From the NCBI GenBank assembly GCA_039680175.1, contig JBDKTO010000061.1, positions 1 through 35,599 of the forward strand: 35,599 nucleotides of DNA. The letters run 5' to 3'. The notes beneath the pieces were generated by a model, which was not told where the DNA came from, did no database searches, and worked only from the letters and a program-made list of their open reading frames with translations. A program made the position numbers and the translations under genes. This DNA comes from Veillonellales bacterium (GTDB taxonomy: Bacteria > Bacillota > Negativicutes > JAAYSF01). Of the stretch, positions 2,545 to 35,599 are shown piece by piece (the stretch's first letter is position 1; the number at the start of each line of letters is the position of its first letter).

Positions 2545-3351
2545 CTACTCAATCAAGCCTGACTTCCTATATAATTCATAAAAATGATGAGTGGGACCGA
2601 CCCCACCGCCTAATTGAAACCCATGTTGGATCGCAATCGTGACATAACGCTTTGCCTCTCGAATCGCAGTCTCCACTGACAGTCCTTTCGCCAATCCGGC
2701 GGCAATAGCGGAAGAAAAAGTACATCCTGTGCCATGAGTATGAGCATTATCAATTCGTTCATTGGAAAATACGGTAAAAATTCGTCCGTCATATAATAGA
2801 TCACAGGCATCCCCAGGCAAATGTCCCCCTTTAATCAATACATACGTCGGCCCCATGTTTTTAATAGCAATAGCGGCCTTTTCCATACCGGTTCTGTCTT
2901 CAACAGAGAATCCGGCAATCTCTGAGGCTTCATAAAGATTTGGTGTTACAATCAGAGCTAAGGGGACTAATCGTTCAATCAACGCCGCTACCGCATTCGG
3001 CTGCAGCAAATAGCTGCCGCTTTTCGCTATCATCACCGTATCTAACACAACATTTTTCGCCCGGTATTGTTGTAAAGCATCGGCAACTGTATTGATAATA
3101 GCCGCACTTGACAGCATGCCAATTTTCACAGCATCCACCGGAATATCGGTATAAACAGCAGCAATTTGATCACGGATGATTGCCTGATCCAGTTCTCTGA
3201 TACTAGTTACTCCACAGGTATTTTGAGCAGTAATTGCTGTAATCGCACTCATGCCAAAAACGCCACAGGCAGCGAAAGTTTTTAAATCTGCCTGAATTCC
3301 AGCTCCGCCACTGGAATCTGAACCCGCAATCGTCAACGCCGTATGCAACAT
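2545..3351 (-). CDS. thiD: Hydroxymethylpyrimidine/phosphomethylpyrimidine kinase
   Basis: Ribokinase-family enzyme that phosphorylates HMP and then HMP-phosphate to give HMP-pyrophosphate for thiamine synthesis. Its 268 residues match the family. The N-terminal substrate site TIAGSDSSGGAGIQADLKTF is at residues 7-26. The middle KGGHLPGD and the C-terminal anion-hole/ATP segment HGTGCTFSSAIAAGLAKG carry the catalytic Cys/Gly pattern of ThiD. The ATG has AGGAGG upstream. Its stop overlaps the ribosome site of the downstream response regulator. A transporter of the family that can carry thiamine precursors lies close by, divergently oriented. Confidence 0.92.
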   Translation of the reverse strand: MLHTALTIAGSDSSGGAGIQADLKTFAACGVFGMSAITAITAQNTCGVTSIRELDQAIIRDQIAAVYTDIPVDAVKIGMLSSAAIINTVADALQQYRAKNVVLDTVMIAKSGSYLLQPNAVAALIERLVPLALIVTPNLYEASEIAGFSVEDRTGMEKAAIAIKNMGPTYVLIKGGHLPGDACDLLYDGRIFTVFSNERIDNAHTHGTGCTFSSAIAAGLAKGLSVETAIREAKRYVTIAIQHGFQLGGGVGPTHHFYELYRKSGLIE

Positions 3352-3376: not shown

Positions 3377-4042
3377 TTATTCAGTTAACCTGCGGCGCAT
3401 TTCAGCAAGTGTTGGCCTAAGGTTAACTTCTATTTTTTCTTCCAGTTCATTTAGCTGTTTACATTCAAATACTGCAGCCATTTCCGGTGTTCGGTGAAGA
3501 CGAAGTTCACCGAAAAAATCATCGCGAAAAACATTATAATAAATCGTTAAGTTGCTCTCGGCAGCAAAATCGCTATAATCAATAATAATATAAGCACCAT
3601 TAAGCACTTTTAGCGGTTCAAACGGCCGAATATACAGCTCAAACCCGGAAATTTCACTTGGCAGCTGTTTCGCATATGTCCACTCTAAAATCTTTTTATC
3701 TTTAACAATACTGCTTAATGCGCTTTCATTAAATACAGCTAAATCATGTATCGTTTTTGCCATTCGCATGGAAAGAACTCGTTCTAAAGCAGAAAGATCG
3801 CCAACGATAAACCCAATATCGCAATATTCGGTAAGGCCAGCAACTACCTGTGCTAAATAATCCTTCGTTTCGCTATCATATAAAACAGAAAAGCTGCGAT
3901 GACAGCCGGAATTTTCATAACAAAAAATCAAAAACTGAGTATTCCGCCTTGTTAATTGCTTTTTTAAGATAAAACCATTTATTTCTGCCGGCAATGATGC
4001 TAAAAATGTCCATTGCTGAATCTCCTGAATTACATCTTCCAT
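3377..4042 (-). CDS. Uncharacterised 221-residue protein with two similar halves
   Basis: I do not recognise a family. An open frame continues upstream to 4231, but those codons overlap the oppositely transcribed lipoprotein gene, so I place the start at the ATG of MEDVIQEIQ (4042). The upstream GGGAG is 12 bases away, so the start is not certain. The two halves resemble each other: W-T-F-L-x-x-LPAEINGF-I-L near residue 11 and W-T-Y-x-x-x-LPSEISGF-E-L near residue 119, each followed by a hydrophobic strand-rich stretch. No signal peptide or membrane segment is visible. The C-terminal end is charged (EIEVNLRPTLAEMRRRLTE). It lies just upstream of thiD with 25 bases between, so it may share a transcript with thiD-cheY. 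Confidence 0.6.
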   Translation of the reverse strand: MEDVIQEIQQWTFLASLPAEINGFILKKQLTRRNTQFLIFCYENSGCHRSFSVLYDSETKDYLAQVVAGLTEYCDIGFIVGDLSALERVLSMRMAKTIHDLAVFNESALSSIVKDKKILEWTYAKQLPSEISGFELYIRPFEPLKVLNGAYIIIDYSDFAAESNLTIYYNVFRDDFFGELRLHRTPEMAAVFECKQLNELEEKIEVNLRPTLAEMRRRLTE

Positions 4043-9800: not shown

Positions 9801-10709
9801 CTATTGTGTAATCATTTTGCCGACTAACTGTCTCACCTGAGTCAGTCCTCGCTGCTGTAAATACTCGCCAATCCCCTCTGCCACTGTCCGGGCAGCACAG
9901 GGATTAACAAAATTTGCCGTTCCCACCGCCACCGCACTGGCTCCAGCCAAAAGAAACTCGATGGCATCCTCAGCCGTCATAATGCCGCCCATGCCAATCA
10001 GCGGCACCTTTACCGCTTGCGCTGCCTGCCAAACCATCCGCAGTGCCACCGGCTTCACGGCAGGCCCTGATAAGCCGCCGACAATATTGCCAAGAACCGG
10101 CTTCCAGCTGTGAATGTCAATTGCCATGCCCAATAACGTATTAATCAGCGAAATGGCATCTGCGCCGGCCGCCTCCACTGCCTGAGCCATAGAAACAATA
10201 TCCGTCACATTGGGTGATAATTTGGCAATAACCGGTACGCGGCTGTTATCCTTGACTTGCCTTACTACTGAAGCCGCACTGTTCCGGTCTGTGCCAAAGG
10301 CAATTCCCCCCTGCTTGACATTGGGACAGGAGATGTTGACCTCAATTCCGGCCACACCGGGAATATTCAACCGGCTTGCCAGTTCGCCATACTCTTCCGC
10401 CGTTTTCCCGGAAATATTTACAATAATCGGTACTTCATACGTTGATAGTTTCGGCAATATTCCCTGAATAAATTCTTCCACCCCAGGATTTTCAAGCCCA
10501 ATAGCATTCAGCATACCGGCCGGAGTTTCGGCAATCCGCCGTCCCGGATTGCCGGCACGAGGTTCCAGCGTCGTACCTTTTACTACGATCGCGCCGATCT
10601 GGTTAATATCCATAAAGTCGCGATATTCCAGGCCAAAGCCGAAAGTACCCGATGCCGTCATGACCGGTGTTTTCATTTTAATACCGGCAATATCAGTAGC
10701 CAAGTCCAA
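9801..10709 (-). CDS. pyrD: Dihydroorotate dehydrogenase, class 1B catalytic subunit
   Basis: Oxidises dihydroorotate to orotate with FMN and works as a heterotetramer with PyrK, passing electrons to NAD. The 302-residue protein shows [23 protein letters not shown] with the catalytic Cys typical of class 1, and the FMN phosphate site GMGGI plus [12 protein letters not shown]. Translation starts at TTG (10709), immediately after the pyrK stop, with GGGGAGG eight bases upstream. Confidence 0.95.
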
Positions 10710-22302: not shown

Positions 22303-22353
22303 ATACTGTTAAATTCTGCCAAAGATTAAATGTGTCCCTAAGAGGTGATCGCT

Positions 22354-23922
22354 GTGGACAATAAACGGAATACCAGCCTCAAAGACCTTGAGCCGGCTTG
22401 CTTCTATCTTCGCAAATCCCGTGAAGATCAGGAAGCGGAAGCCCGTGGCGAAGGAGAAACTTTAGCTAAGCATAAAAAAGCGCTTTTCCGCCTTGCCAAA
22501 GAATACGGCGTAGCTATTACGAAGGTGTTTGAAGAAATAGTTTCGGGGGAAAGCCTCATCCACCGACCGGAAATGCTGGAATTACTTAAAGAAGTCGAAA
22601 GCGGCAGCTGGAAATCGGTATTTTGCATGGATATTGACCGGCTTGGCCGCGGCGGCATGCAGGACCAGGGACTTATCATTGAAACGTTTAAAAATACAAA
22701 TACTAAAATAGTTACGCCGCGCAAAATATACGATTTAAACGATGAATTTGACGAAGAATACACCGAATTTGAGGCGTTTATGGCCCGAAAAGAATTGAAG
22801 ATCATTACCCGGCGCCTGCAAGGCGGTCGGCTGCGCTCCGTTGAGGACGGCAACTATCTTGGCACTGTGCCGCCATACGGCTACCAGATTGAGAAAAAGG
22901 ATCGCAGCAGGTATTTGGTTAAAAATCCGGAGCAAAGTACCGCCGCCGCGTTAATTTGGAAACTATACCAACAGGAAGATATGGGGACTAACAAAATTGC
23001 CAATGAATTAAACCGGCTCGGCTATGTTTCATACACGGGGAAAAACTGGTCTGCTTCTTCTATCCTGTCGATGCTGAAAAATCCGGTCTATGCCGGTGTT
23101 ATAGCCTGGAAGAAAAAAGAACAAAAAAAATCTGCTGAACCCGGAAAAAAGCGGGATACCAAATCCCGGCCCCGCAGTGAACAAATTTGGATATATGATG
23201 CTCATGAACCTTACATTTCCCTTGATGAATTTCACAAGGTTCAGGATAAACTAAAAAAGAAGTACCATCCTCCATTTCAGCTTATTAACGGTTTAGCCAA
23301 TCCGCTTGCCGGACTAATCAAGTGCGAACTGTGCGGCCTGTCCATGGTTTACAGGCCATACTCCAACCAAAGAGCCCACCTCATATGCTACAACAGACAT
23401 TGCCATAACAAAAGCAGCCGTTTTGAATATGTAGAGGATGCGGTTATAAGCGGTCTTGAACATTGGCTCAATCAGTACCGTGCCCAATGGGACGCCAATC
23501 CCCAGGCAAAAAAAAATAATAACATGGCCTGCTTAAAAGAAAAAGAACTAAAAAAGCTGCAGAAAGAACGTAATGAGCTAGCCCGGCAAAAGGACAATTT
23601 ACACGATCTGCTTGAAAAAAAAGTCTATGATATAGAAACCTATCTGGACAGGTCAAAAAAGCTTTCCGAACGAATCACAAACGTTGACAATGCCATATCC
23701 GAAACTGAGACCAGCCTGGCAAATGAAATCATGCGCCGAAAAGCCCAAAAAAGCATTATGCCGAAAGTAAAAAATCTTCTGGACATTTATCGAAAGGCGA
23801 CAAGTCCGGAAGCAAAAAACAAACTACTGAAGTCAGTTTTGGAGTATGCGACATACTTAAAAGAGCCAAATCAAAAAGGGCGAGACTTCTCGCTCGTGCT
23901 GCACCCTAAGCTGCCGCAGTGA
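22354..23922 (+). CDS. Large serine recombinase 1
   Basis: A 522-residue site-specific integrase/excisionase. The N-terminal resolvase domain (about 10-150) has the catalytic serine in CFYLRKSREDQ and the Arg-rich DIDRLGRGG. Next come the recombinase domain with PPYGYQI, a zinc-ribbon (CELCGLSMVY ... CYNRHCHNKSS) and a coiled-coil (about 400-470). The GTG at 22354 follows AGAGGTGATC, which is itself the ribosome site, so the GTG at 22345 is not the start. Its stop lies 27 bases from the sigK fragment. It differs clearly from recombinase 2. Confidence 0.9.
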   Translation: MDNKRNTSLKDLEPACFYLRKSREDQEAEARGEGETLAKHKKALFRLAKEYGVAITKVFEEIVSGESLIHRPEMLELLKEVESGSWKSVFCMDIDRLGRGGMQDQGLIIETFKNTNTKIVTPRKIYDLNDEFDEEYTEFEAFMARKELKIITRRLQGGRLRSVEDGNYLGTVPPYGYQIEKKDRSRYLVKNPEQSTAAALIWKLYQQEDMGTNKIANELNRLGYVSYTGKNWSASSILSMLKNPVYAGVIAWKKKEQKKSAEPGKKRDTKSRPRSEQIWIYDAHEPYISLDEFHKVQDKLKKKYHPPFQLINGLANPLAGLIKCELCGLSMVYRPYSNQRAHLICYNRHCHNKSSRFEYVEDAVISGLEHWLNQYRAQWDANPQAKKNNNMACLKEKELKKLQKERNELARQKDNLHDLLEKKVYDIETYLDRSKKLSERITNVDNAISETETSLANEIMRRKAQKSIMPKVKNLLDIYRKATSPEAKNKLLKSVLEYATYLKEPNQKGRDFSLVLHPKLPQ

Positions 23923-23943
23923 CATTTACTGATAAACACATGA

Positions 23944-23957
23944 GGGGAACTCATTCC
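23944..23957. other. Candidate attachment-site junction of element 1 in sigK
   Basis: Sigma-K homology ends here. On the minus strand the junction reads GGGAA-TGAG-TTCCC, a small inverted repeat centred on the last sigK codon, and it contains AATGA (23951-23955). The recombinase 1 stop is 27 bases away, the usual closeness of a serine-integrase site to its gene. The exact crossover bases cannot be fixed without the other junction. Confidence 0.5.
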
Positions 23958-24042
23958 CTTCCTTATCAACACCGATGGGATCATACAAACTTACTTCGGC
24001 CCGGGTTCTGCGGGTGCTTCGCAGATGCATTAGAATTTCATT
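23950..24042 (-). pseudogene. sigK: Internal fragment of sigK (sigma-K), 31 codons, flanked by two recombinase genes
   Basis: On the minus strand an in-frame segment reads [13 protein letters not shown] then [18 protein letters not shown]. This is sigma-K sequence from the region 2.4 end onward (about residues 113-143 of B. subtilis SigK, which reads ENEILMHLR...DPIGQDKEGNE). Homology stops at both ends: before it lie the last codons of recombinase 2, and after GNE the frame runs into FPSCVYQ and a stop. The right end begins with AAT-GAA at 24042-24037. AATGA is, from memory of the skin-element work, the five-base crossover sequence in B. subtilis sigK at the same codons. The left end is AAT-GAG. 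I read it as a middle exon of a sigK split by two elements. Exons 1 and 3 are not in the window. Confidence 0.85.
24038..24042 (-). other. Candidate skin-type crossover core AATGA (element 2 / sigK junction)
   Basis: AATGA on the minus strand encodes the Asn-Glu where sigK homology begins, and its TGA is also the stop codon of recombinase 2. Position and sequence match the B. subtilis skin crossover site. The bases just outside read CGTTGCGTGAGAATAGCA, loosely like sigK codons for RCIE, as expected for half-site similarity. Confidence 0.6.
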
Positions 24043-25798
24043 TGCTATTCTCACGCAACGGCTCAGCAGTATTCCCCTCAGTTTCAGTAGGTCCATCGCC
24101 GCTCTCCGAAAGGAATTCATCCGGCGGCAATTCAATTCCAGCGCTGTCGTCAGAGCCAAATAAATATACATGAACATTCTCGCCGTCCCAAACTACCTTT
24201 TTCACAAAGGTGCGTAAGGCGGCGCGTTTTTGTTCAACGCTCATATCGTCTATCGTATCCCTAAAGGTTGTGAGCATCTGACGGATAATATCAAACTCAA
24301 TATTAGAAAGGGCATGACTGGCTGTAAGGCTCTCCATTTCAGAAATATGGCTTTTCATTATTTCGCCCTTGCCGTGCAGCTCATCAATTTGTTTAACAAT
24401 ATAACTCTCGGCTGCTGTGCCCGCCGCTTTAGTGAGTGACGATACCAGCGCGGTAATCTCTTTTTCATTCTCCGCAAGCACACCGCGCAGGCGATCTAAA
24501 TTATCGTCATATTCTTCACGATTGCCTTCCAGTTGTTTTTTCCCGAGTTCAAGCTGACGGATAAATTCTGAGCTGTCTGCGCCAAGTCTTTTTATTTCTT
24601 CACACACAACTCTGTCAAGCATATTTCCATTAGCGTTCTTCATCTGACAGACATGAGAACGACTCTTTTCCTTCATGGCACAAAGATAAGAATAAATAAA
24701 CTCTCCGTGTGCATCTAGGCGTTTACTTAGTTTAGGACGCATATAGTCACCGCAGGTGCAAAATAAAAGACCGGAAAGCAGCGCGACATTGCTTCTGGGT
24801 TTACGGAAGGACTTAGACCGATTCTGTTCTAAATATTCCTGTACCGTAATCCATTCCGTACCTTTGATTAGACCTATGTGCTTCCCCACAGCCACAATCC
24901 ATTCGTCCATGGGGCGTATTTGGTTAGCCTTACCGGACTTTTGAATCGTACGGTTATAGGCCATGATGCCATGCGTGCTGTCAAAATCTTCTTTTTCGGC
25001 AAACAATTCTACCTCGTTTTCGACTAGGTAACGATAAGCATCTTCATCAGCAATCATATATACCGGATTGGTAAGAATATTACGGAGAGCAAAGCGGGTA
25101 AACAATTTGTTGTTTTTCGTTTTATAACCGTTTTGAATGAAGTACGTTTCCGTTTTTGTCAGTGAATTTGTTTCCAAAAACACTCTATAAATCTGTTTAA
25201 TGATTTCTGCTTCTTCGGGAATGAGTGTTAACTTACAGGCTTTTTTTGTTTTTCCTTCTACCGTTATCTTCTCCACTGATTCAGACTTATACCCTGTGGG
25301 CGTTCTGCCACCAAGCCAACGGCCGGTTTTGGCTAACTCGTGCATATTATCACGGATACGCTCAGCTATCGTTTCACGCTCTAGCTGCGAAAATACAGAG
25401 GAAATATACATCATGGCTCTACCCATAGGAGAAGAAGTATCAAATTGTTCCTTAATAGAAATAAAGGAAACATTCAAACCATCCAATTCCTCAATCAGCT
25501 TGGCAAAGTCACCTATGTTACGGCTTATGCGGTCAAGGCGATAGCAGACGATAGCAGAAAAGGTATTTGCCCTTGCATCAGCCATCATCTTCTTAAAGTG
25601 AGGACGCTCCGTATTTTTTCCCGAAAATCCTTCATCTTCATATATTAAGATACTTTCGTCATTGCAATTAGGGTAATGGGCACGAATATACTGCCTGCAT
25701 AGCTCGACTTGATTTTCGATACTTTCGCCCTTCCCTGTAAATTTAGATTTACGAGAATAAATGGCAATCTGTTCCGTATTTTCTTTCGTTTGCTTCAC
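24038..25798 (-). CDS. Large serine recombinase 2 (candidate sigK-intervening-element recombinase)
   Basis: 586 residues. The N-terminal resolvase domain shows [20 protein letters not shown] with the catalytic serine, and [22 protein letters not shown]. Next are a recombinase domain ([13 protein letters not shown]), a zinc-ribbon-like segment ([10 protein letters not shown], later SHVC) and a C-terminal coiled-coil. It is closer in style to the [11 protein letters not shown] recombinases of clostridial skin and transposon elements than to recombinase 1. Its stop codon lies in the AATGA junction with sigK, so it sits at the very end of its element. In a sporulating host it would be expected to excise the element in the mother cell; that role is inferred. 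Confidence 0.9.
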
Positions 25799-25836
25799 TT
25801 TATCGCACCAGCCTTTTATGTTCTATATTGTCATTT

Positions 25837-25842
25837 ATTATA
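25837..25842 (-). promoter_or_regulatory. Extended -10 promoter of recombinase 2
   Basis: The minus strand reads TGTTATAAT, an extended -10 (TGnTATAAT), about 40 bases before the start codon. No good -35 is present. A sporulation-specific sigma factor is not excluded but is not evident. Confidence 0.45.
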
Positions 25843-25871
25843 ACACAGCGTCCACAATATAAAACAGGACA

Positions 25872-25917
25872 AAAGACAAGCCGCTAATCCTAAATTTAGG
25901 ATTAGCGGCTTGTCTTT
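25872..25917. terminator. 46-bp perfect palindrome, probable terminator after the nuclease gene
   Basis: Two 23-base arms (25872-25894 and 25895-25917) are exact reverse complements with no spacer; the centre is CCTAAATTTAGG. On the minus strand it follows the restriction operon and is trailed by CTTTTG, a weak U-tract. It separates that operon from the recombinase 2 promoter. Confidence 0.7.
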
Positions 25918-25963
25918 ACCAGCGATTCAAGAAAAACTCTTTAATGAACGAGGCATATTGAAC

Positions 25964-26944
25964 CTACATCAAGCTAAGCATCAATTCTCCGTTTTGTGCA
26001 ATATCATACTGGAATAGCTTAATTTCTTTGCCCTCAAATTGCTTCCTTTTTTGAACGTAGTCCACAACATCCGCGTCAAACCGTTTGGCGATGGCACTAA
26101 CTCGCACCATGTTCATATCACCCTGAACCTTTTTATGAATAAACCATGCTTCATAGCCAATCAATTGCCGGAGAGCCTTAGCATCAAAACGATCTAGTTT
26201 TACTTCTATTATGTCGTAAGACATCGTTTGCTGTTTATTCTGAGGGTTGCCAAAAAACAAAAGAATATCAATCTCTGTCCCGAGATTAGTGGGGACATAG
26301 CTCAGATAGTCGGAGTAGTTCCCAAATATATCCTGAAATTCACCTTTAACAAAAGCACCCAACAGTAATGCCATGAGAGACGCTTCATAGCGTGGAAGGT
26401 GACCGCCGTCCATTTTATGAATTTTCTCAAATAGATTTGCCGGCTTAACGGGGTAGGGTTCCATAATGATATTTTTGCTCATCGTAAATGGATTAATTTT
26501 CAGATATTCTTGTAATAAAATATCAAATTCTAAATCAGAAATAGAGAACATTGCATTCGTGCCGCTTGCACGTTTAAGTGCAAAAGTCCATATTTTGCCG
26601 GAGTTTCTTAAATCAAAAATATCATTAAGGCGCAACGGCTTTGCGAAGCTGTATTGCGTGCTTTCCAAGCGATAACGAAAGGGATATGTTTTATCACTCC
26701 ACACTGGTGTATCATCATAAAATGGTTTGCCTGCGGCCTTCCATATTCCCCTCAGTTCCTTTACGCCTGTTACATAAAACAGTATGTAATCGCCCTCTTT
26801 AACAATAGCCATTCGGGAAAGTAGCGCATCATTCGTGGCCAGTTCGTTTTTGGAGCCGGAAACAGCTTCCGGCAATCCTACGATTCCTCTGTGCGTACAA
26901 ATAGCATAATTTCCTTCATCGAGCACAAATATATGCGCAGGCAT
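25964..26944 (-). CDS. EVE-like domain fused to a PD-(D/E)XK nuclease
   Basis: 326 residues. The N-terminal 120 resemble the EVE/PUA-like fold that reads modified bases or RNA: VKEGDYILFYVTGVKELRGI, then FYDDTPVWSDKTYPFRYRLE. The C-terminal part has PD-(D/E)XK nuclease marks: E187 in RYEASL, D226 in GTEIDILLF, E247-V-K249 in IIEVK, and Q260...Y264 in LRQLIGYE, a pattern of RecB/NucS-like nucleases. The likely role is cleavage of modified or foreign DNA (type IV-like restriction) beside the type I system. The ATG is ten bases after the immA stop with AGGTGA upstream, so it is the last gene of the operon. The domain calls come from reading motifs, and the substrate is unknown. Confidence 0.7.
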   Translation of the reverse strand: MPAHIFVLDEGNYAICTHRGIVGLPEAVSGSKNELATNDALLSRMAIVKEGDYILFYVTGVKELRGIWKAAGKPFYDDTPVWSDKTYPFRYRLESTQYSFAKPLRLNDIFDLRNSGKIWTFALKRASGTNAMFSISDLEFDILLQEYLKINPFTMSKNIIMEPYPVKPANLFEKIHKMDGGHLPRYEASLMALLLGAFVKGEFQDIFGNYSDYLSYVPTNLGTEIDILLFFGNPQNKQQTMSYDIIEVKLDRFDAKALRQLIGYEAWFIHKKVQGDMNMVRVSAIAKRFDADVVDYVQKRKQFEGKEIKLFQYDIAQNGELMLSLM

Positions 26945-26954
26945 ACTCCTTCAC

Positions 26955-27728
26955 CTACCATTTCAAAATTGTCATTGCTGAGCCATCAACATAACTGCCG
27001 CGAGTGCATTCATAAACCTTTTGTTCCGGTACTGTACGGAGAAGCCAATTTGGCGAATCACATTCCACGAAATTACTCTGCTGCTTTTTGTTGATTATCA
27101 TTTCATGCGCTACTGTTTCACCTGGCAAAGAGGCATGCCCGCCCCAAAACCCCTTTGCGGCCCGTGAAACCTTGTAACTGGTAACTTTTCCGTGTTTTGA
27201 AAAAACTACAATACAAGGCTTTTGCGTTAATTCCACTAAACGATAGCTGCAAGCCTGTTTTGATACCATAAACTCAATTGCCAAACCTGCAATGAGAGCA
27301 AAATCAATCTCAGCTCCCAACATCAGCAACAAAAAACGGTCCTGCGGCATTAGCAATTCAACAGCGAAACGGTTTGCCTCCGCTTCGCGCCCTTTATGCT
27401 CCATACTGGTTTCTGAGACGTTACACTTGATACCAAGCTGGCCATCTTTTGAAAAACTCGGGGGATGATTTAGAAAGTAATGCCCCAGCTCATGTGCAAA
27501 CGTAAAGTTGTGGCGAGCGGTATTATCAATGCGCGTGTTTACAAGAATGCCGCGCTGGTCTCCCTTAAACACCAGCATCCCGTCCCATTTATCGGGGTAG
27601 TCTTTTTGTTTGTATTTGACACCTTCACTGTCGGCAATAGCACCGAGCGACAGAGCTGGAATATCACCGACTTTTTTATCCGATAAAACCTGCTTTGCCT
27701 TTGCAACGGGGTCAGCTATTGCAATCAT
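26955..27728 (-). CDS. ImmA/IrrE-family metallopeptidase
   Basis: A zinc peptidase of the family that cleaves repressors, as ImmA does to ImmR in ICEBs1. The site FAHELGHYFLNH is at about residue 77 from my start, and the downstream Glu is in EAEANRFAVELLMP. About 257 residues, longer at the C-terminus than ImmA. The frame is open to 27788, but the ATG at 27728 lies in the end of hsdS (17-base overlap) and gives a natural start (MIAIADPVAKAKQVL); its ribosome site is weak, consistent with coupling. No HTH repressor partner is visible nearby, so its target may be within the restriction operon or elsewhere. Confidence 0.82.
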   Translation of the reverse strand: MIAIADPVAKAKQVLSDKKVGDIPALSLGAIADSEGVKYKQKDYPDKWDGMLVFKGDQRGILVNTRIDNTARHNFTFAHELGHYFLNHPPSFSKDGQLGIKCNVSETSMEHKGREAEANRFAVELLMPQDRFLLLMLGAEIDFALIAGLAIEFMVSKQACSYRLVELTQKPCIVVFSKHGKVTSYKVSRAAKGFWGGHASLPGETVAHEMIINKKQQSNFVECDSPNWLLRTVPEQKVYECTRGSYVDGSAMTILKW

Positions 27729-29310
27729 CCCCAAACATTTCTTTGATATCGCGCACGGCTTCATCCGAAAGCCCTTGCATTTCACCACGCGCGGCGATTC
27801 CGATTTCTAATTTGTCCTCGCCTTGTTGCGGGAACGGCACAATATTGGATGCTGTCCGCTTTACAGAAATATCCTTCGCTGCTTTCAGTTCGTCGCACAG
27901 CGCCATCAGCTCGTCCACTTTGGCGACGATGCGCTGCTGCTCGGCAAGAGGCGGAAGGGGAAGAGGCAAGTGAAAAAATATATCTTTATTTAAATGAGGA
28001 ATTGCTGCACCCTTTTTTGAGTTTCTAAGCAAATCCTTGTGTAATTCGATGAACCTAAGAATAAACGGCAACCATAATGCTTCTACAATATGAAGCACTT
28101 TGAATGTACTCCCCATGTAACCTTCCATAGGAGAAATAAAAACTTCACCAGAATTTTCGCCATCTACCAAGATAAGTTTAGTTCCTTCTTTTATGAATTT
28201 ACCCTCATCAACTATCGCGGGCGTTTTTTGTCCTCTTAATACTTTTGCCTCAAGATAAGGCAATGGGTTTCCGCTTGCTTTTTCCCCTTCTAATAAAGAG
28301 ACAACTCCACCCAGCCTGCACCACATCCACCCATCCGGCAAATCGTATGGGATTTCGTCCTCTGCAATAGGCGGCAGGGGCTTTTCTTTTTTGATTTTGC
28401 CTTCCCTGACAAGCTGTGCTTTTTCCTGCTGAATGCGTTTTAGCAATTCCACTACTGGTTCGTCATGGACATTTTGCGGCACAAGTTTGCCCTGCACCGC
28501 TGCTTGCAGGATGGACTTCGGCAAATATTCGGCAAAGCGGCTTTCCAGCGCGTCCAGCTCTTTTTCCGCTGCTTCCAGTTCGTCGCATAACGTCATCAGT
28601 TCGTCCACTTTGGCGACGATACGCTGTTGCTCAGCAAGAGGCGGGATGGGAATCAACATAGTCTCAACCCCTCCCACGCGGAGGTGTTGTACAGTCAACC
28701 CCACTGGCTTATCTTGAACATATTCCATCAGGTTTGGATTTTGAAGAAAAAACAAAATGAACTTTGGAACAATAGTCTCTGGCATCAATCTAATTAGCAT
28801 TAACCGTTGACCAAGACAAACTCTTATATTTTGAGGCAACATGCAAACTTCCCCCATTGGGGCTTCTCTGGTAATAATAATGTCGCCCGCTTCAGGAATG
28901 CAGCGAGCACTCCACCGTTCAAATGTATTCTCGGTAACAAATTTTAAGCCTTCCGGTTGAAATTTCCCATTGCGTACATTCGATGTGCGCATAAGTGGTA
29001 TACCTGATTTAGAATAAGGCGCAGTTTTATTGTGGCAGTCAACGACCAAACCAGAGCATTGCATTAAAGTTGCCCATTTCCAACCATCCGGCAAATCAGA
29101 AACATCATCTGGAATCGTCTGTTTTTTTTGCTTTAATTGCTGAATTCTTGCTTCGTCTGCATTAGGATATTCGGACTCAAGAAGTTTCTCTCTTTTTTGA
29201 GCAATTCTATCTAATAATATGGATGCCGGTTCGTCGTGGACGTTTTGCTGCACAAGTTTGCCCTGCACCGCCGCTTGCAGGATGGATTGCCGGAGTTGGG
29301 CAGCTTTCAT
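27712..29310 (-). CDS. hsdS: Type I restriction-modification specificity subunit
   Basis: 532 residues. Recognises the bipartite DNA target and joins HsdM and HsdR. Two target-recognition domains are separated by conserved helices: SILQAAVQGKLV at residues 9-20 and again at 266-277, and PPLAEQQRIVAKVDELM at 223-239 and again at 453-469. Each recognition domain starts after an L-P-DGW motif. The start overlaps the hsdM stop by four bases. The tail after residue 480 is unusual and ends inside the immA start. Confidence 0.92.
   Translation of the reverse strand: MKAAQLRQSILQAAVQGKLVQQNVHDEPASILLDRIAQKREKLLESEYPNADEARIQQLKQKKQTIPDDVSDLPDGWKWATLMQCSGLVVDCHNKTAPYSKSGIPLMRTSNVRNGKFQPEGLKFVTENTFERWSARCIPEAGDIIITREAPMGEVCMLPQNIRVCLGQRLMLIRLMPETIVPKFILFFLQNPNLMEYVQDKPVGLTVQHLRVGGVETMLIPIPPLAEQQRIVAKVDELMTLCDELEAAEKELDALESRFAEYLPKSILQAAVQGKLVPQNVHDEPVVELLKRIQQEKAQLVREGKIKKEKPLPPIAEDEIPYDLPDGWMWCRLGGVVSLLEGEKASGNPLPYLEAKVLRGQKTPAIVDEGKFIKEGTKLILVDGENSGEVFISPMEGYMGSTFKVLHIVEALWLPFILRFIELHKDLLRNSKKGAAIPHLNKDIFFHLPLPLPPLAEQQRIVAKVDELMALCDELKAAKDISVKRTASNIVPFPQQGEDKLEIGIAARGEMQGLSDEAVRDIKEMFGDDCNS
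27881..28645. repeat. Long direct repeats inside hsdS
   Basis: A block of about 74 bases coding the conserved helix at 27881-27954 recurs at 28571-28644 with few differences. A second block of about 58 bases at 28457-28515 recurs at 29228-29286. Recombination between copies here, or with another hsdS, could change specificity. Confidence 0.7.
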
Positions 29311-30764
29311 AACGCATCCCCCTGTTCCATGGCGGTGGTGATGCGCTCCAATATGTTTTCAATCCGTGCGGAAATGGCGGCTTTCTCATTTAGATATTCC
29401 ACGATAAACTCATCAGGCGGTAGAATCTCCACTGTGTCGTGGGGAAAGCTGCAAAGGTCGAGGTTATAGTCACCGCTCGCGGCAATATCCTCAACCGGCA
29501 CATATTGTGAGACTTCACTTTCAATACGATTGTTCCACCACTCGCGTACAGGATCGAAGTGTGCGTCCAGCATAGGACGCGTTTTAGAGAAATGCTTATA
29601 GCCCGCAGGCATTTCCAGCCGGTAGAACCACACGCCTTTTGTCGGACGGCCCTTGCGGAAAAACAGCAGATTTGTGTTGATGTTGGTGTACGGCGCAAAT
29701 ACGTCTTTCGGCAACCGCACGATGGTGTGCAGGTCGTTTTCTTCCAACAGTTTTTTCTTGATGGCAGATTTAACGCCTGTACCGAACAGGAAGCCATCCG
29801 GCAAAACAAGGCCGCACCGACCGCCGTCTTTTAACAGCGCCATGATATGCACAAGGAACAGGTCGGCGGTTTCCGAGTTCCTCAATTCAGCGGAAACGGA
29901 CTGCGAAATAACCTTTTCTTCTGCGCCGCCAAACGGCGGATTGGTTACAATTACATGCACTCTGTCCTTTTCAGTATACTCGCCAACCGGATGGATAAGT
30001 GTGTTTCCGTGCGTGATATCCGGTACATCAATGCCATGTGCAATCAGGTTGGTCACACACAGCAGATATGGAAACGGTTTTTTTTCAATACCCTTGATGT
30101 TGGATTGCAGCATCCGGTATTCTTCGGTCGTTTCGATATTGTGGCGGTCAATTACACTGGTGAGAAAGCCGCCTGTGCCACACGCCGGGTCGAGCACCAC
30201 TTCGTTAAGTTTTGGATCTATCTGCTCAACAATAAAGTGAGTGACGGGACGTGGGGTGTAAAATTCGCCAGCCTTGCCTGCGCTTTGCAGATCTTTAAGC
30301 ATGGTTTCATACAGGCCGTTAAACAGATGCGCGGTTTTCACTTCGTCGAAGTTGATATCACCGTTTATCTTGTTCACAACCTGTCGGAGCAATGTGCCGG
30401 ACTTCATAAAGTTGTTGACGCCTTCCATTACGTTGCGGATAAGCCATTTGCGCTTTTTGGTTTCGTTTTTGGTATCCATAGACGAATCCAGATTACGTAA
30501 AGCAATAAACATCTTGTCCACATGCGAAAGAAGCGCATCGCCCGTAATGCCCTCGGAATCGTCGGCCCATGTGCTCCAGCGATATTCGCTGGGGATGACC
30601 GGCTCGTATTCGGTTTCGGTAAGTTCCCATTCCTGTTCCTTATAATCAAACGCCTTAAGGAACAGCATCCATGTAATCTGCTCGATATACTGCGCGTCGC
30701 CGTTGATACCGGCATCTATGCGCATGATATCCTTTAAGGCTTTGGTTGTGTTTGATACTGCCAT
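29307..30764 (-). CDS. hsdM: Type I restriction-modification DNA methyltransferase subunit
   Basis: A 485-residue N6-adenine methyltransferase. The N-terminal helical domain (TWMLFLKAFDYKEQEWE) is followed by GEFYTPRPVTHFIVE, the SAM-binding motif DPACGTGGF (192-200) and the catalytic motif NPPFGG (275-280). It methylates host targets together with HsdS. It lies 18 bases after hsdR. Confidence 0.95.
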   Translation of the reverse strand: MAVSNTTKALKDIMRIDAGINGDAQYIEQITWMLFLKAFDYKEQEWELTETEYEPVIPSEYRWSTWADDSEGITGDALLSHVDKMFIALRNLDSSMDTKNETKKRKWLIRNVMEGVNNFMKSGTLLRQVVNKINGDINFDEVKTAHLFNGLYETMLKDLQSAGKAGEFYTPRPVTHFIVEQIDPKLNEVVLDPACGTGGFLTSVIDRHNIETTEEYRMLQSNIKGIEKKPFPYLLCVTNLIAHGIDVPDITHGNTLIHPVGEYTEKDRVHVIVTNPPFGGAEEKVISQSVSAELRNSETADLFLVHIMALLKDGGRCGLVLPDGFLFGTGVKSAIKKKLLEENDLHTIVRLPKDVFAPYTNINTNLLFFRKGRPTKGVWFYRLEMPAGYKHFSKTRPMLDAHFDPVREWWNNRIESEVSQYVPVEDIAASGDYNLDLCSFPHDTVEILPPDEFIVEYLNEKAAISARIENILERITTAMEQGDAL

Positions 30765-30782
30765 ATTCGGTTCCTCCGTTTA

Positions 30783-33134
30783 TTATGCTGCATAGAGTTC
30801 GTGTGTAAGCTCTTTCATCGCTTGTTCGAAATTGGTTTTTCCCTTGAAAATCTTGTTTACGATATAAATGGGAGAACCGAAATCCTTGATGGGGTTGACT
30901 TTGAGGATGTCCATGCTTTCTAAGTCAGCGACGCCGGAATCAGCGTATTTCTCAAGCAGAGCATCCAGCACAGAAGCGGCTAGCTCGCCATACTTAGCGA
31001 AGTAGTTTCGCTTTTTCACGTTGTTGGCCCGTTCTCTGCGGGTCAGCGGCTTCTGATCAAAAGCCACATGGCAAAGCAAATCGAACGGGTCAAACTCCTG
31101 CCCGATTTGTTCTTGCAGTTCCTCAATTAAGATGCCTTGCGCTGCCAGCTCATCCAAAATGGCTTGCTTGCGCTCGGCGCTGTTCCACTCAGTAAGGAAG
31201 TCATCTAGCGTGGCGTAGCGGTCACGCACATTGCGGCGGGTGTAGTCGGTCAAAGATTCGGTAATCAGCTTGCCGTCCTTATCGATATATTGCACACGCT
31301 GTTTAAGTACGGTCACTTCAACATCATGAACATAGTATTTCTGCCTGCGGCCTCCCGGTGGATCAACAGCGGGTGGCGGTTCCTCGGCTCCATCGCCATC
31401 ATCTTCCGGCGGGTCATCCGGCAACGGCGGTATTTCTCCATCCGACCCTGGCGTAAACTCGGAGTCCTGCTCCACAGGCCCGTCAAAGTCCGGGTCGGCA
31501 AAAAGGCGCGTTGCGTTGCGAAAATCAAAGATAGTAAAGAACATTTTACCCAAGTCTTCGCGGACACGGGTGCCGCGTCCGATAATCTGCTTAAATTCCG
31601 TCATACTGTTGATGTTGGAATCCAGCACGATAATTTTCACCATCTGAGCGTCAACACCTGTGGTAAGCAGCTTGGATGTAGTAACCAACACAGGGTATTT
31701 GCTGGACACATCGCGGAAGTTATCAAGCTGCTTTTTGCCGATATCGTCATCGCCTGTAATGCGCATGACATATCGTTCATCTTCACCAACAAGATCACGG
31801 TTTTCGTTGACAAGTGCTTGCCGCATACGATCGGCATGTTCGGTATCAACACAGAAGAAGATAGTCTTGTCAAACCGGCTATTGTGCTTTCGCAGATAGT
31901 TGGAAACAACCTTAGCAACCATTTTAGTACGCTGTTCCAACACCAGTTCGCGGTCAAAGTCGCTGGCATTATATTCTCTATCTTCAATTACATTGCCGAA
32001 ACGGTCTGTCTGCCCGACATACGGGCGGAAACCCTCGGCATCCTTGTCCAGCAGCACACGGATGACACGATAAGGTGCAAGAAAACCATCATCTATGCCT
32101 TCTTTCAGCGAATAGGTATAGATGGGCTTGCCAAAATAGTCGATGTTGGATACGTCTTTATCTTCTTTGGGTGTAGCCGTCAAGCCAATTTGTGTCGCTG
32201 GCTTAAAATAATCCAGTATTTCGCGCCACTCGCTGTTTGCCCTTGCGCTGCCTCGATGACATTCATCCACGATGATAAGGTCAAAGAAATTTTGACTGAA
32301 TTGCTTAAAAACGTTTTTATCACCATCTCCGGTCAATCCCTGATACAGCGCGAGATAGATTTCATAAGATGTGTCAATCTTCCGGTTACGGATGATGGTC
32401 ATTTTATCTTTGAACGGCGCAAAATCGTTTACATAGGTTTGGTCGATCAGCGCATTACGGTCTGCGAGAAACAGAATGCGCTTCTTAACACCTGCCTTCC
32501 ACAGACGCCAAATGATTTGGAAAGCAGTATATGTTTTACCCGTACCTGTAGCCATGACAAGCAGCACGCGGTTTTGTCCGCGCGTTACAGCATCAACAGT
32601 AAGGTTGATTGCGTTAAGCTGGTAATAACGCGGAGGCTTGTCCTCCCGTTCCATGTAATAAGGCTGGGCTATAATTTGTTCTTGAGTATCGTCAATTTTG
32701 TTGATTTGCTTATACGCGGCCCAGAGTATTTCCGGCGATGGGAACTCGTCAAGGTTGATGATATTTTCACTAGAATCAATCCGATTGTGGAATGTGAACC
32801 CATCCCCATTAGATGTGAAAACAAACGGTATCATCATGAGCTGGGCGTAATCCAACGCCTGTTGCATGCCATCTCCGATGGCATGGTTATTATCTTTGGC
32901 TTCAACAATGGCAAGAGGAATGTGCGGTTTGTAGAACAAAACGTAGTCTGCACGCTTGGCCTCTTTACGCTTATAGCTTCCACCACGGGCGATAATACGT
33001 CCTTTGGTGATTGCGTATTCTTCGCGTATTTGAGGCACTGCCCAGCCCGCAGCTTTAATAGCCGGAGTGATATATTGCGTTCTTATCTCCTGTTCGGTTA
33101 ATTGACTTTTGTTCACTCCAATCCCCCATTCCAC
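30783..33134 (-). CDS. hsdR: Type I restriction endonuclease, motor subunit
   Basis: 783 residues. The N-terminal PD-(D/E)XK nuclease has D63 in KRADYVLFY and E78-A-K80 in IVEAK. The SF2 translocase has Walker A MATGTGKTY (194-202), IIVDECHRG (288-296) and GLTATPKED (318-325). After a Pro/acidic linker (about 580-615) comes the C-terminal helical domain that docks on HsdM. Start: the ATG at 33134 has GAGGAG only four bases away, and a GTG at 33116 is an alternative. The R-M-S order with downstream immA and nuclease genes suggests one five-gene defence operon. Confidence 0.93.
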   Translation of the reverse strand: MEWGIGVNKSQLTEQEIRTQYITPAIKAAGWAVPQIREEYAITKGRIIARGGSYKRKEAKRADYVLFYKPHIPLAIVEAKDNNHAIGDGMQQALDYAQLMMIPFVFTSNGDGFTFHNRIDSSENIINLDEFPSPEILWAAYKQINKIDDTQEQIIAQPYYMEREDKPPRYYQLNAINLTVDAVTRGQNRVLLVMATGTGKTYTAFQIIWRLWKAGVKKRILFLADRNALIDQTYVNDFAPFKDKMTIIRNRKIDTSYEIYLALYQGLTGDGDKNVFKQFSQNFFDLIIVDECHRGSARANSEWREILDYFKPATQIGLTATPKEDKDVSNIDYFGKPIYTYSLKEGIDDGFLAPYRVIRVLLDKDAEGFRPYVGQTDRFGNVIEDREYNASDFDRELVLEQRTKMVAKVVSNYLRKHNSRFDKTIFFCVDTEHADRMRQALVNENRDLVGEDERYVMRITGDDDIGKKQLDNFRDVSSKYPVLVTTSKLLTTGVDAQMVKIIVLDSNINSMTEFKQIIGRGTRVREDLGKMFFTIFDFRNATRLFADPDFDGPVEQDSEFTPGSDGEIPPLPDDPPEDDGDGAEEPPPAVDPPGGRRQKYYVHDVEVTVLKQRVQYIDKDGKLITESLTDYTRRNVRDRYATLDDFLTEWNSAERKQAILDELAAQGILIEELQEQIGQEFDPFDLLCHVAFDQKPLTRRERANNVKKRNYFAKYGELAASVLDALLEKYADSGVADLESMDILKVNPIKDFGSPIYIVNKIFKGKTNFEQAMKELTHELYAA

Positions 33135-33315: not shown

Positions 33316-34803
33316 TTAACACTTGTCCTTAGAATTTACGAGATTACATTTCCGTTCAAGAACCATTTTTTTATTTAGTTTTGCAATATTACAAAAATAC
33401 TCATTAACTGCTAACGGGTCTCCTAAAGGGTGTTCATTTGCGTTTCTAACCATACACATAGTACAAAACTCATTTTCTGGACATTTAATACATTTAGGGA
33501 AATCCCGTTTGCGTAAGCTTCTTAAATATTGTACCTTTATTGAATTGTTCCAAATATCGTTGAGAGATGTTTCATGTACGTTGCCTACAACGTAATCCTG
33601 CCAACCAGCACATGGATATACATTTCCATTGTCTGCTATACATATAGATGAATAACAAACACTACAGACAATGTCATCTGGATTCATACTTTTTTTCTTT
33701 TCAGCTTCCTTTTCCATTAGCTCTAAATATTTGGGTTCATTAATACTCCTTTGGTTAATAACCTTCTTGACATCATTTATAGACAAACGGTTACTCAGAT
33801 TTTGTGTTGTATGGTTATATCTTGCTATGATGACATAATCACTTCCAACATTAATATTGTGTGTTTTCCCCCAATCTGTAACATCAATATAACAGTTAAT
33901 ATTTTGCTTTATTATTGGACAACTAATTTGCAAAGGTATATCATTTTCCTTCAGTTTTAATATTGCATTTTTAGTTTTTTCAAAACTTCCTTTTATTTGG
34001 GTTATTGCATCGTGAATATTGGAATCCATTGAATATAATGATGTTTGAACACTCAAGAGGGGATTTTTTTTCATTTCTTCGATGATATCTTTATTTAGTA
34101 AAGTTAAATTACTAAGAACATTTACGGAAAAGTTGTATTCATTACATTTTTTCAGGAAATCGATAAAGTGATGGTGCATCATGGGTTCACCGCCACTTAG
34201 CGTTACATGCAACAAATTCATTTCTTTACATTGTTCTAAAATATTATAAAACAAATCAGGATCGATATGATTTACCTTGTTATCATGTGGGATATAACAA
34301 TGTACACATCTTTCGTTGCATTTGCTCGTAATTTCTATGTGTAAATTTGTAAGCTGCGGTTCGTTTTTAAAGTATTCATCAAAAAATTCTTGTGTAGATT
34401 TTTCAAAACCCTTAGTCGATGAACAATCCTTTTTTTCGCTTTTTGGTTCCACTACCTTGTATGAAAACACCGAGTCTTTTTCATTGCATTCTTGCAAAGT
34501 TTCGCCAGATACAACAAACCCGTCCAACTCAAGTAAGCAATAAAATTCTTTAGCATCGACCTTAATTGTTTCAATGTCCGCATTTGTAAATTGTATGCTT
34601 ATTTTTTTAGCGAGATCATCAAGCGTCTGTGGTTTCTTACCTAAAACAGATAAAAACACCGCTCCGCTCTGCGATACAATTTTGTCTCCAATATCATCTC
34701 TGTCATTATTCGCTTGTCTGTACCCGAAATTTCTATTGTCTGTTATATAGCCAAAAAACTTATAGTTTCTGAATATAACATTAGATTTTTGTTTGAAATA
34801 CAT
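33316..34803 (-). CDS. Radical SAM/SPASM peptide maturase with N-terminal PqqD-like (RRE) domain
   Basis: A 495-residue RiPP-modifying enzyme. Residues about 35-105 (GDKIVSQSGAVFLSVLG ... EFYCLLELDGFVV) look like a PqqD-type recognition element that binds a leader peptide. The radical SAM core has C162-x3-C166-x2-C169 (CNERCVHC) and GGEP at 204-207. The C-terminal SPASM region has Cys 380, 383, 388, 398, 438, 441, 447, 450 and 471 (for example CPENEFCTMC), enough for two auxiliary Fe-S clusters. AAGGAG lies seven bases before the ATG. The architecture is like Cys-rich-peptide maturases of Clostridia. A 38-residue precursor gene lies 71 bases upstream. The AT-rich base use differs from the chromosome at left. 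Confidence 0.9.
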   Translation of the reverse strand: MYFKQKSNVIFRNYKFFGYITDNRNFGYRQANNDRDDIGDKIVSQSGAVFLSVLGKKPQTLDDLAKKISIQFTNADIETIKVDAKEFYCLLELDGFVVSGETLQECNEKDSVFSYKVVEPKSEKKDCSSTKGFEKSTQEFFDEYFKNEPQLTNLHIEITSKCNERCVHCYIPHDNKVNHIDPDLFYNILEQCKEMNLLHVTLSGGEPMMHHHFIDFLKKCNEYNFSVNVLSNLTLLNKDIIEEMKKNPLLSVQTSLYSMDSNIHDAITQIKGSFEKTKNAILKLKENDIPLQISCPIIKQNINCYIDVTDWGKTHNINVGSDYVIIARYNHTTQNLSNRLSINDVKKVINQRSINEPKYLELMEKEAEKKKSMNPDDIVCSVCYSSICIADNGNVYPCAGWQDYVVGNVHETSLNDIWNNSIKVQYLRSLRKRDFPKCIKCPENEFCTMCMVRNANEHPLGDPLAVNEYFCNIAKLNKKMVLERKCNLVNSKDKC

Positions 34804-34826
34804 CTACATATCTCCTTAGCAATCAA

Positions 34827-34856
34827 GCGACGATGTTATTTGCATAACATCATCGC
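34827..34856 (-). promoter_or_regulatory. Stem-loop between precursor and maturase genes
   Basis: GCGACGATGTTA (34827-34838) pairs with TAACATCATCGC (34845-34856), 12 bp with one G-U, six-base loop, no T-run after it. In RiPP operons such stems often act as partial terminators or RNA-end stabilisers, so that far more precursor than enzyme is made. Confidence 0.65.
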
Positions 34857-34874
34857 CATTGATCAAATCGTCCA

Positions 34875-34991
34875 TTAGCGTCCGCTTGGTCCTGGAGGAT
34901 TGCAAGGTCTTCCGCTCGGTTTACTATTCGGACGGCATTGTGCCATCTGTACAGTACTTTGTGCCAAGATTACAGGCTTTTCATATACCAT
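34875..34991 (-). CDS. Candidate RiPP precursor peptide, 38 residues
   Basis: A short gene found by reading the region upstream of the maturase. AGGAGGTGG (34997-35005) precedes the ATG by five bases. The product starts MVYEKPVILAQS, a leader-like segment, and ends in the core CRPNSKPSGRPCNPPGPSGR. The core has two Cys eleven residues apart, six Pro, and the four-residue motif PSGR twice, with the second copy at the very C-terminus. The short leader with K-P near the start is common in precursors of radical-SAM RiPPs. Expected modification is a thioether or carbon-carbon link at Cys or neighbours by the downstream enzyme. No transporter or peptidase gene is seen next to it. Confidence 0.75.
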   Translation of the reverse strand: MVYEKPVILAQSTVQMAQCRPNSKPSGRPCNPPGPSGR

Positions 34992-35009
34992 TTTTTCCAC
35001 CTCCTTTCA

Positions 35010-35204
35010 TCGTCTTGTTGCTTTTGCTATAAAATGCAACATCTTGCGGATCGCCCGGCGGAATTATCTTGCAACTCAGCTCGAGCCACACATTACACAT
35101 AACTACTGCTTTTGCAAAATAACAATTCAACCAAGAACCCGTTATGTCATAGACGAAAGTTATTTCGGAAAGGCTCCCGTGGACGGTTCCACCGATTCTT
35201 TACC
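35010..35204 (-). ncRNA. Long structured leader upstream of the precursor gene
   Basis: About 200 bases separate a TATAAT from the precursor. The RNA would form GTGGA-ACCG-TCCAC (35179-35192), a GGAG/CTCC-type pairing with the next bases, and a GTTGC/GCAAC hairpin (35017-35040). The minus-strand frame is also open here (VYDITGSWLNCYF...), without a start codon or ribosome site at its head, so I favour a structured RNA over a protein. The family is not identified. Confidence 0.4.
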
Positions 35205-35216: not shown

Positions 35217-35229
35217 ATTAAAAAATTCC

Positions 35230-35291
35230 GCGAAAAGCATAGAACTCCTGCCAAAATTTTAATAATTTGGCAGAGATTCTATGTTTTTCGC
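35230..35291. repeat. 62-base extended hairpin
   Basis: GCGAAAAGCATAGAA (35230-35244) pairs with TTCTATGTTTTTCGC (35277-35291) with one mismatch. After a 3x3 internal loop, CTGCCAAA (35248-35255) pairs with TTTGGCAG (35266-35273). On the minus strand GGAATTTTTT follows, so it may act as a terminator for anything upstream, or it may be a small mobile or regulatory repeat. Confidence 0.65.
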
Positions 35292-35360: not shown

Positions 35361-35516
35361 TGCCCCCAAAATAGAACAATATTCAGCACCACTGTTCTTC
35401 CAATATTGAATCCTTTAAACATACGTGAGGACGTTTTCCTTGTACCATTACTTACTTTAATGATACGAAAGAAGAACGAAATCGCTCCGCGATGGCTTAA
35501 AAGCATAAAAAAAGAT

Positions 35517-35584
35517 AAAAAGTATGTCCTTTTTGTGGTATTGTTTAATTGCTAAAGAAAACAAACCAAAAGGACGTACTTTTT
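35517..35584. repeat. 17-bp inverted repeat at the right edge
   Basis: AAAAAGTATGTCCTTTT (35517-35533) pairs with AAAAGGACGTACTTTTT (35568-35584) with one G-T, 34 bases apart. On the minus strand it is followed by ATCTTTTTTT, so it could terminate a transcript entering from the right. The end of an insertion sequence is another option that the window cannot decide. Confidence 0.55.
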
Positions 35585-35599
35585 ACTTTATGATTATAT

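Follow-up and report, generated by a model that had tools for sequence, protein, structure and literature searches.

A two-gene radical SAM/SPASM peptide cassette with a nearly invariant core on diverse mobile elements

In the streptide system, the maturase SuiB combines an RRE with radical SAM and SPASM domains and adjoins a short precursor, SuiA (5v1t). SPASM-type enzymes also form thioethers on Cys-containing peptides, as with SkfB and AlbA for sactipeptides and PapB for a ranthipeptide. Sactipeptide thioethers connect the Cys sulphur to an α carbon and those of ranthipeptides to a β or γ carbon, typically of Asp, Glu or Thr, and SCIFF peptides carry six Cys in about 45 residues. The cores of competition RiPPs usually diversify. 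We examined a gene pair that shares the streptide arrangement and has detectable maturase relatives among these thioether formers. The pair moves between phyla, and its core was more constrained than any other part of the unit, the catalytic domain included.

The pair was found in a 35,599-nucleotide stretch from a Veillonellales bacterium, referred to here as the window. The precursor gene starts with an ATG at 34991, stops at 34875-34877 and encodes MVYEKPVILAQSTVQMAQCRPNSKPSGRPCNPPGPSGR, and exactly 71 nt separate it from the ATG of the maturase gene at 34803. The window sequence and the Pfam domains therefore bear out the original prediction of a 38-codon precursor 71 bases before a radical SAM/SPASM enzyme. 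No Pfam or NCBIfam model matched the precursor peptide. The features of the unit are as follows.

34875-34991, minus strand: very probable RiPP precursor gene, 38 codons plus stop (open reading frame with a Shine-Dalgarno sequence, homologues upstream of related maturases, purifying selection)
34938-34991, minus strand: leader MVYEKPVILAQSTVQMAQ, with the motif Y-x-[KR]-P-x-[IV]-[LW]-A-[QK]...M-A (invariant sites; the RRE-binding role is inferred)
34878-34937, minus strand: core CRPNSKPSGRPCNPPGPSGR, of which residues 1-15 are nearly invariant (pN/pS; identical plasmid copies)
about 34997-35005, minus strand: strong Shine-Dalgarno sequence of the precursor, AGGAGGTGG (from the sequence; comparable in most relatives)
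34821-34864, minus strand: hairpin separating the precursor and maturase genes (predicted fold of -23.5 kcal/mol, compensatory changes)
34812-34817, minus strand: Shine-Dalgarno sequence of the maturase, AAGGAG (from the sequence)
33316-34803, minus strand: radical SAM/SPASM peptide maturase, 495 aa (Pfam, alignments, best structural match SuiB bound to SuiA)
34504-34803, minus strand: PqqD-like leader-binding domain (RRE), residues about 1-100 (PF05402 in homologues, not in the window copy alone)
33844-34356, minus strand: radical SAM core, residues about 150-320, with CNERCVHC at 162-169 (PF04055)
33379-33678, minus strand: SPASM domain, residues about 376-475 (PF13186)

Comparison with relatives established the pairing. 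The precursor lay directly upstream in all 15 distinct intact maturase relatives, which were 40-89% identical and came from Bacillota, Bacteroidota and Pseudomonadota. Two findings would have refuted the prediction, loss of the peptide beside a retained maturase or a better precursor there; neither was made at any of them. When about 85,000 species genomes were scanned, six intact relatives (70-89% identity) turned up, all with the peptide directly upstream, besides one broken relative. A plasmid collection yielded seven conjugative plasmids, from E. coli, Salmonella and Photobacterium, whose maturases were 51-52% identical to that of the window. The precursor MSYSKPTVLAKSSTYMAQCRPNSKPSGRPCNPPGPSGR stood upstream of the maturase at the five plasmid loci that were read, and a peptide search located the same 38 residues in 7 of 7 plasmids. 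An orphan or chance reading frame was ruled out by the peptides upstream of the relatives together with the mostly synonymous variation of the core codons. These two genes are very probably a precursor and its maturase. One further pattern match, L076, was dismissed as a chance GC-rich frame.

Conservation of the peptide was demonstrated most clearly in its core. Positions 19-33 (CRPNSKPSGRPCNPP, 15 residues) were almost invariant in the group with 48-89% maturase identity. Across 12 copies, pN/pS was 0.055 for the core versus 0.40 for the leader. The maturase gave 0.34 over its whole length, with lower values for the radical SAM domain (0.25) and for SPASM (0.29). The core value falls below those of the maturase, implying that the product is more constrained than the enzyme making it. 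The plasmid copies from E. coli, Salmonella and Photobacterium matched the window at all 20 core residues, despite enzymes only 51-52% identical and differing leaders. In the leader, Y3, P6, A10, M16 and A17 were invariant in 12 relatives, with the remaining sites variable. A core variant, CRPNRRPCGRPCNPP, was seen at L024, and one Bacteroidota copy had its core shortened to CSPKPSGRPCKPPGPGR. Two outgroups, whose maturases were 40% identical, kept the leader motif and carried the cores CGSGPCGRPR and CSRRTQHVSTPINCRIP. In one outgroup genome (G1466; L055, 5279-6361), a second radical SAM gene without SPASM followed the maturase, alongside the shortest precursor, that with the core CGSGPCGRPR.

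The domains of the window enzyme were identified by Pfam as Radical_SAM (1.7e-22) and SPASM (2.4e-11). A PqqD-like domain had been predicted as well; PF05402 detected it in 12 of 13 homologous N-termini (best 2.4e-10), but not in the window copy alone, and the claim stands on the homologues only. The CxxxCxxC cysteines (C162, C166 and C169) were invariant in the aligned relatives. In the SPASM region, nine of nine Cys (C380, C383, C388, C398, C438, C441, C447, C450 and C471) were invariant in the 48-89% group, and C380, C398, C438, C441, C447, C450 and C471 were retained in the 40% outgroup. A sequence-profile search recovered SkfB, PqqE, BtrN and SuiB as solved relatives. The best fold match of an AlphaFold2 model was SuiB bound to SuiA; the model was mediocre, with a mean pLDDT of 63.5 and an N-terminus below 50. 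Leader binding and radical chemistry are inferred from the families to which these domains belong. The PqqD-like domain would bind the leader through Y-x-K-P-x-I-L-A-Q...M-A, and the radical SAM cluster and auxiliary clusters would then modify the core.

The likeliest modification, by analogy, would be a thioether link from the thiols of C19 and C30 to carbons of nearby residues, in the backbone or the side chains. We lean towards such thioethers, although the inference is weak, no chemistry has been measured and the modified residues remain undetermined. A modification without thioethers (epimerisation, hydroxylation, methylation, or Arg or Pro chemistry), with the Cys serving another purpose, is a minority possibility that deserves to be kept in mind. 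The radical SAM peptide epimerase EpeE was among the distant structural relatives of the maturase, and Pro, Gly and Arg were near-invariant in the core besides Cys. However, every core type contained at least two Cys, including the outgroup cores in which most other residues differ, and the SPASM Cys set was complete, as in thioether-forming maturases.

The intergenic spacing was 45-77 nt in most copies, with a hairpin in between; the exceptions were L023 (266 nt) and L055 (170 nt). Among nine close relatives, 7 of 15 hairpin pairs showed compensatory change on both sides. We infer that the hairpin sets a high precursor-to-enzyme ratio: the precursor would be highly expressed, and the hairpin downstream of it would probably lower expression of the maturase gene. 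In the E. coli and Photobacterium copies it resembled a partial terminator and ended in a T run. This likeness to a terminator in Proteobacteria, and an NPP/PPG stretch conserved near the stop, could also fit a cis-acting arrest or attenuator peptide, whose Pro-rich C-terminus would stall ribosomes ahead of the hairpin. That reading seems very improbable to us, because the enzyme has a peptide-binding PqqD domain, the N-terminal leader motif is conserved too, the outgroups keep leader and hairpin yet differ in core, and a phage copy occurs without a maturase. Apart from transposition and recombinase genes, no flanking ORF was common to the loci compared, so the unit consists of exactly precursor, hairpin and maturase. 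The Rfam matches in the window were sub-threshold miRNA hits, spurious and drawn by unrelated palindromes.

Genome sampling found the cassette in 3 of 398 genomes of the window's phylum, 2 of 395 Bacteroidota and 3 of 379 of the window's class. These counts include two decayed copies, in which the maturase was split by a transposase gene or lacked its N-terminus. The cassette was absent from the sampled close relatives of two carriers. The low rates and this absence indicate a patchy, mobile distribution. No cassette relative was found in the phage GenBank records or the RefSeq complete E. coli genomes that were searched. In IMG/VR, the complete cassette occurred on a contig from a Mu-like phage and on an integrative element of the Bacteroides type; a 94-kb contig had the precursor only. 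Hosts can be safely assigned for the complete plasmids and for the Paludibacteraceae copy L011 (145-kb contig; genes read as rpsL, rpsG and fusA), which sits among chromosomal genes without defence neighbours. Less certain are the hosts of L007 (an 11-kb contig of low coverage) and L010 (3.3 kb), whose names were taken from metagenome bins and could be mistaken. At L013 (5869-6791), what is left of a decayed maturase runs in frame into a RelE-like ORF, and toxin-antitoxin remnants lie on either side.

Mobility was demonstrated by the carriers themselves, which were two unrelated Tn3-family transposons (as passenger), the Mu-like phage (as moron) and the Bacteroides-type integrative element (as cargo). 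The cassette on the E. coli plasmid NZ_LT985265 (L016) lay, together with a full-length Tn3 transposase and a resolvase, between terminal inverted repeats of 49 nt (94%; 3897-3945 and 9988-10036). Outside each of these repeats stood TTATA, a 5-bp target duplication in direct orientation. On a Photobacterium plasmid (L014), a different Tn3-family element surrounded the cassette, with 55-nt repeats, the target duplication TATAT and a transposase with a broken reading frame. The two transposases were 22-35% identical in aligned pieces, whereas the maturases were 77% identical, indicating that the cassette moved between Tn3 lineages. The Mu-like phage was recognised by its terminase, portal and head genes, and the cassette had 35-42% G+C in a genome of mostly 62-73% G+C. 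In a search of the loci, the only cassettes flanked by terminal repeats were those of the two Tn3 elements and of one 3.3-kb contig (L010). That contig is bounded by perfect 94-bp inverted repeats (1-94 and about 3209-3302), which may represent a flanking element present twice in opposite orientations. For the Bacteroidota copy, relatives were searched for the empty site, but their synteny was not good enough to use.

Defence genes lay beside five loci. In the window these were a CapP-like M78 peptidase and the following feature.

27712-33134, minus strand: type I restriction-modification genes adjoining the cassette (hsdS-, hsdM- and hsdR-like ORFs recognised from sequence)

The neighbours were type I restriction-like at L007, GmrSD/NsnA-like at L008, Mrr at L012 and an AriA/OLD-like ATPase at L049. 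The count of five has no background rate to be set against, L011 has no such neighbours, and defence genes are close to most genes that mobile elements carry. A role for the cassette in mobile-element fitness or defence is plausible, but it is inferred weakly, from circumstantial evidence. The window region 22345-33134 formed an island that held a pair of large serine recombinases, an EVE-like protein, the M78 peptidase and the restriction system; the cassette lies at the far end of the island, near the contig break. Two long MITE-like palindromes (35229-35290 and 35511-35589) were seen beside the contig end.

We consider it probable, though far from settled, that the pair is a self-contained mobile RiPP cassette whose maturase modifies a fixed core, and whose product more likely works in or on the cell that makes it than serves as a classical bacteriocin. 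Because the core does not diversify, the matured peptide appears to have one fixed target. Acting inside or on its own cell, it might benefit the mobile element through maintenance, exclusion or defence. Own-cell action is favoured, with low confidence, because the unit has no gene for an exporter, a protease or immunity, although a host exporter or peptidase encoded elsewhere is not excluded. A secreted bacteriocin or microcin, with a core cleaved and exported by host machinery to kill competitors, would agree with the plasmid and transposon carriage and the small precursor usual for microcins, and one copy (L009) has a type I-like transporter beside it. The transporter adjoins an RTX-like protein, as read from sequence, which is probably its cargo. 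No exporter, peptidase or immunity gene was common to the loci, and this core is nearly the same from phylum to phylum, unlike the cores of bacteriocins, which usually diversify. We therefore regard secretion as unlikely. An equally doubtful proposal is that the fixed core matures into a cofactor, metal-binding or signalling molecule for host enzymes or receptors, as in PQQ or mycofactocin. The very strong core constraint, the PqqD-like domain and PqqE-like maturase, and a Cys-containing Pro/Gly core that could bind metal speak for it. However, the cassette brings along neither a consumer enzyme nor a receptor gene, and its sporadic mobile distribution is unlike that of cofactor pathways.

The precursor-only contig (IMGVR_UViG_3300014208_000005) was crAss-like, as shown by its muzzle protein (PF25731, 1e-190). 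It carries an intact orphan precursor, MIYTKPKILAQSTVQMAECRPNSRPSGRPCNPPKPGGV (L019, 351-467; contig 41270-41386), among tightly packed genes of the replication region, near a DnaB-like helicase. No cognate maturase was found on this contig, the record of which may be incomplete; the sole maturase-related protein was a short radical SAM protein without SPASM at about 24 kb. The orphan raises the question of phage-host conflict. Conceivably, though this is little more than speculation, the cassette encodes a mobile intracellular RiPP of inter-element conflict (exclusion or anti-phage). The hyperconserved modified peptide would then hit a single universal target in the cell or the phage. In that case, the phage precursor would be a decoy or a substrate for the host's enzyme.

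Returning to the self-contained cassette, the rarely changing final half of the peptide suggests, on sequence evidence alone, a modified peptide that has not been described and whose target is fixed. A constrained core in a pair that hops on transposons, plasmids and phages would fit a target that is fixed and conserved, and suggests a RiPP serving mobile elements. Since the E. coli plasmid copy consists of two genes, these suffice for direct testing in E. coli. In our literature search, no paper contained the string GRPCNPP or joined radical SAM RiPPs with Tn3; subscription papers were mostly outside its coverage, and an earlier description is not excluded.

Searches of NCBIfam, Pfam and PADLOC placed the cassette in no described family; only generic domains matched. 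NCBIfam gave only sub-threshold generic relatives for the maturase (best 102.8 bits against a cut-off of 500). The sactisynthase models AlbA, SkfB and StsB scored 65-71 bits (cut-offs 300-850) and PapB 58.7 bits (cut-off 340), placing the window enzyme at 58-71 bits, short of every sactipeptide and ranthipeptide threshold. The best-scoring peptide-maturase model, WgkB (NF050035), reached 95.9 bits against 650; its name refers to a W-G-K link, which is absent from the window core. PADLOC returned viperin models only, through the radical SAM core (4e-17), and matched no described defence system. A prokaryotic viperin was ruled out, as only that core is shared (NCBIfam viperin, 50.9 against 180); unlike viperins, the window family has SPASM and PqqD domains and a dedicated peptide.

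The window precursor has two Cys (C19 and C30) in 38 residues, with no Asp, Glu, Thr, Trp, Tyr or Phe in its core. It does not meet the SCIFF pattern, and the earlier statement that it is neither SCIFF nor a ranthipeptide with regular Cys spacing holds. Streptide, in which SuiB makes a Lys-Trp carbon-carbon link, as well as darobactin and triceptide-like products, need an aromatic residue in the crosslinked core, and SuiB/SuiA shares only 15-19% identity with the cassette. The core composition argues against streptide-like and, less firmly, usual ranthipeptide linkages. The product could be an undescribed RiPP class; this is not excluded, and chemistry is needed to show it. Tn3-family transposons carry toxin-antitoxin passengers abutting res, upstream of the resolvase (PMC7157771). 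Those passengers are likewise small gene pairs on several unrelated Tn3-family elements. In contrast to them, the cassette consists of an enzyme and a peptide without a toxin or antitoxin fold, and in both elements it lies downstream of tnpR, towards the terminal repeat.
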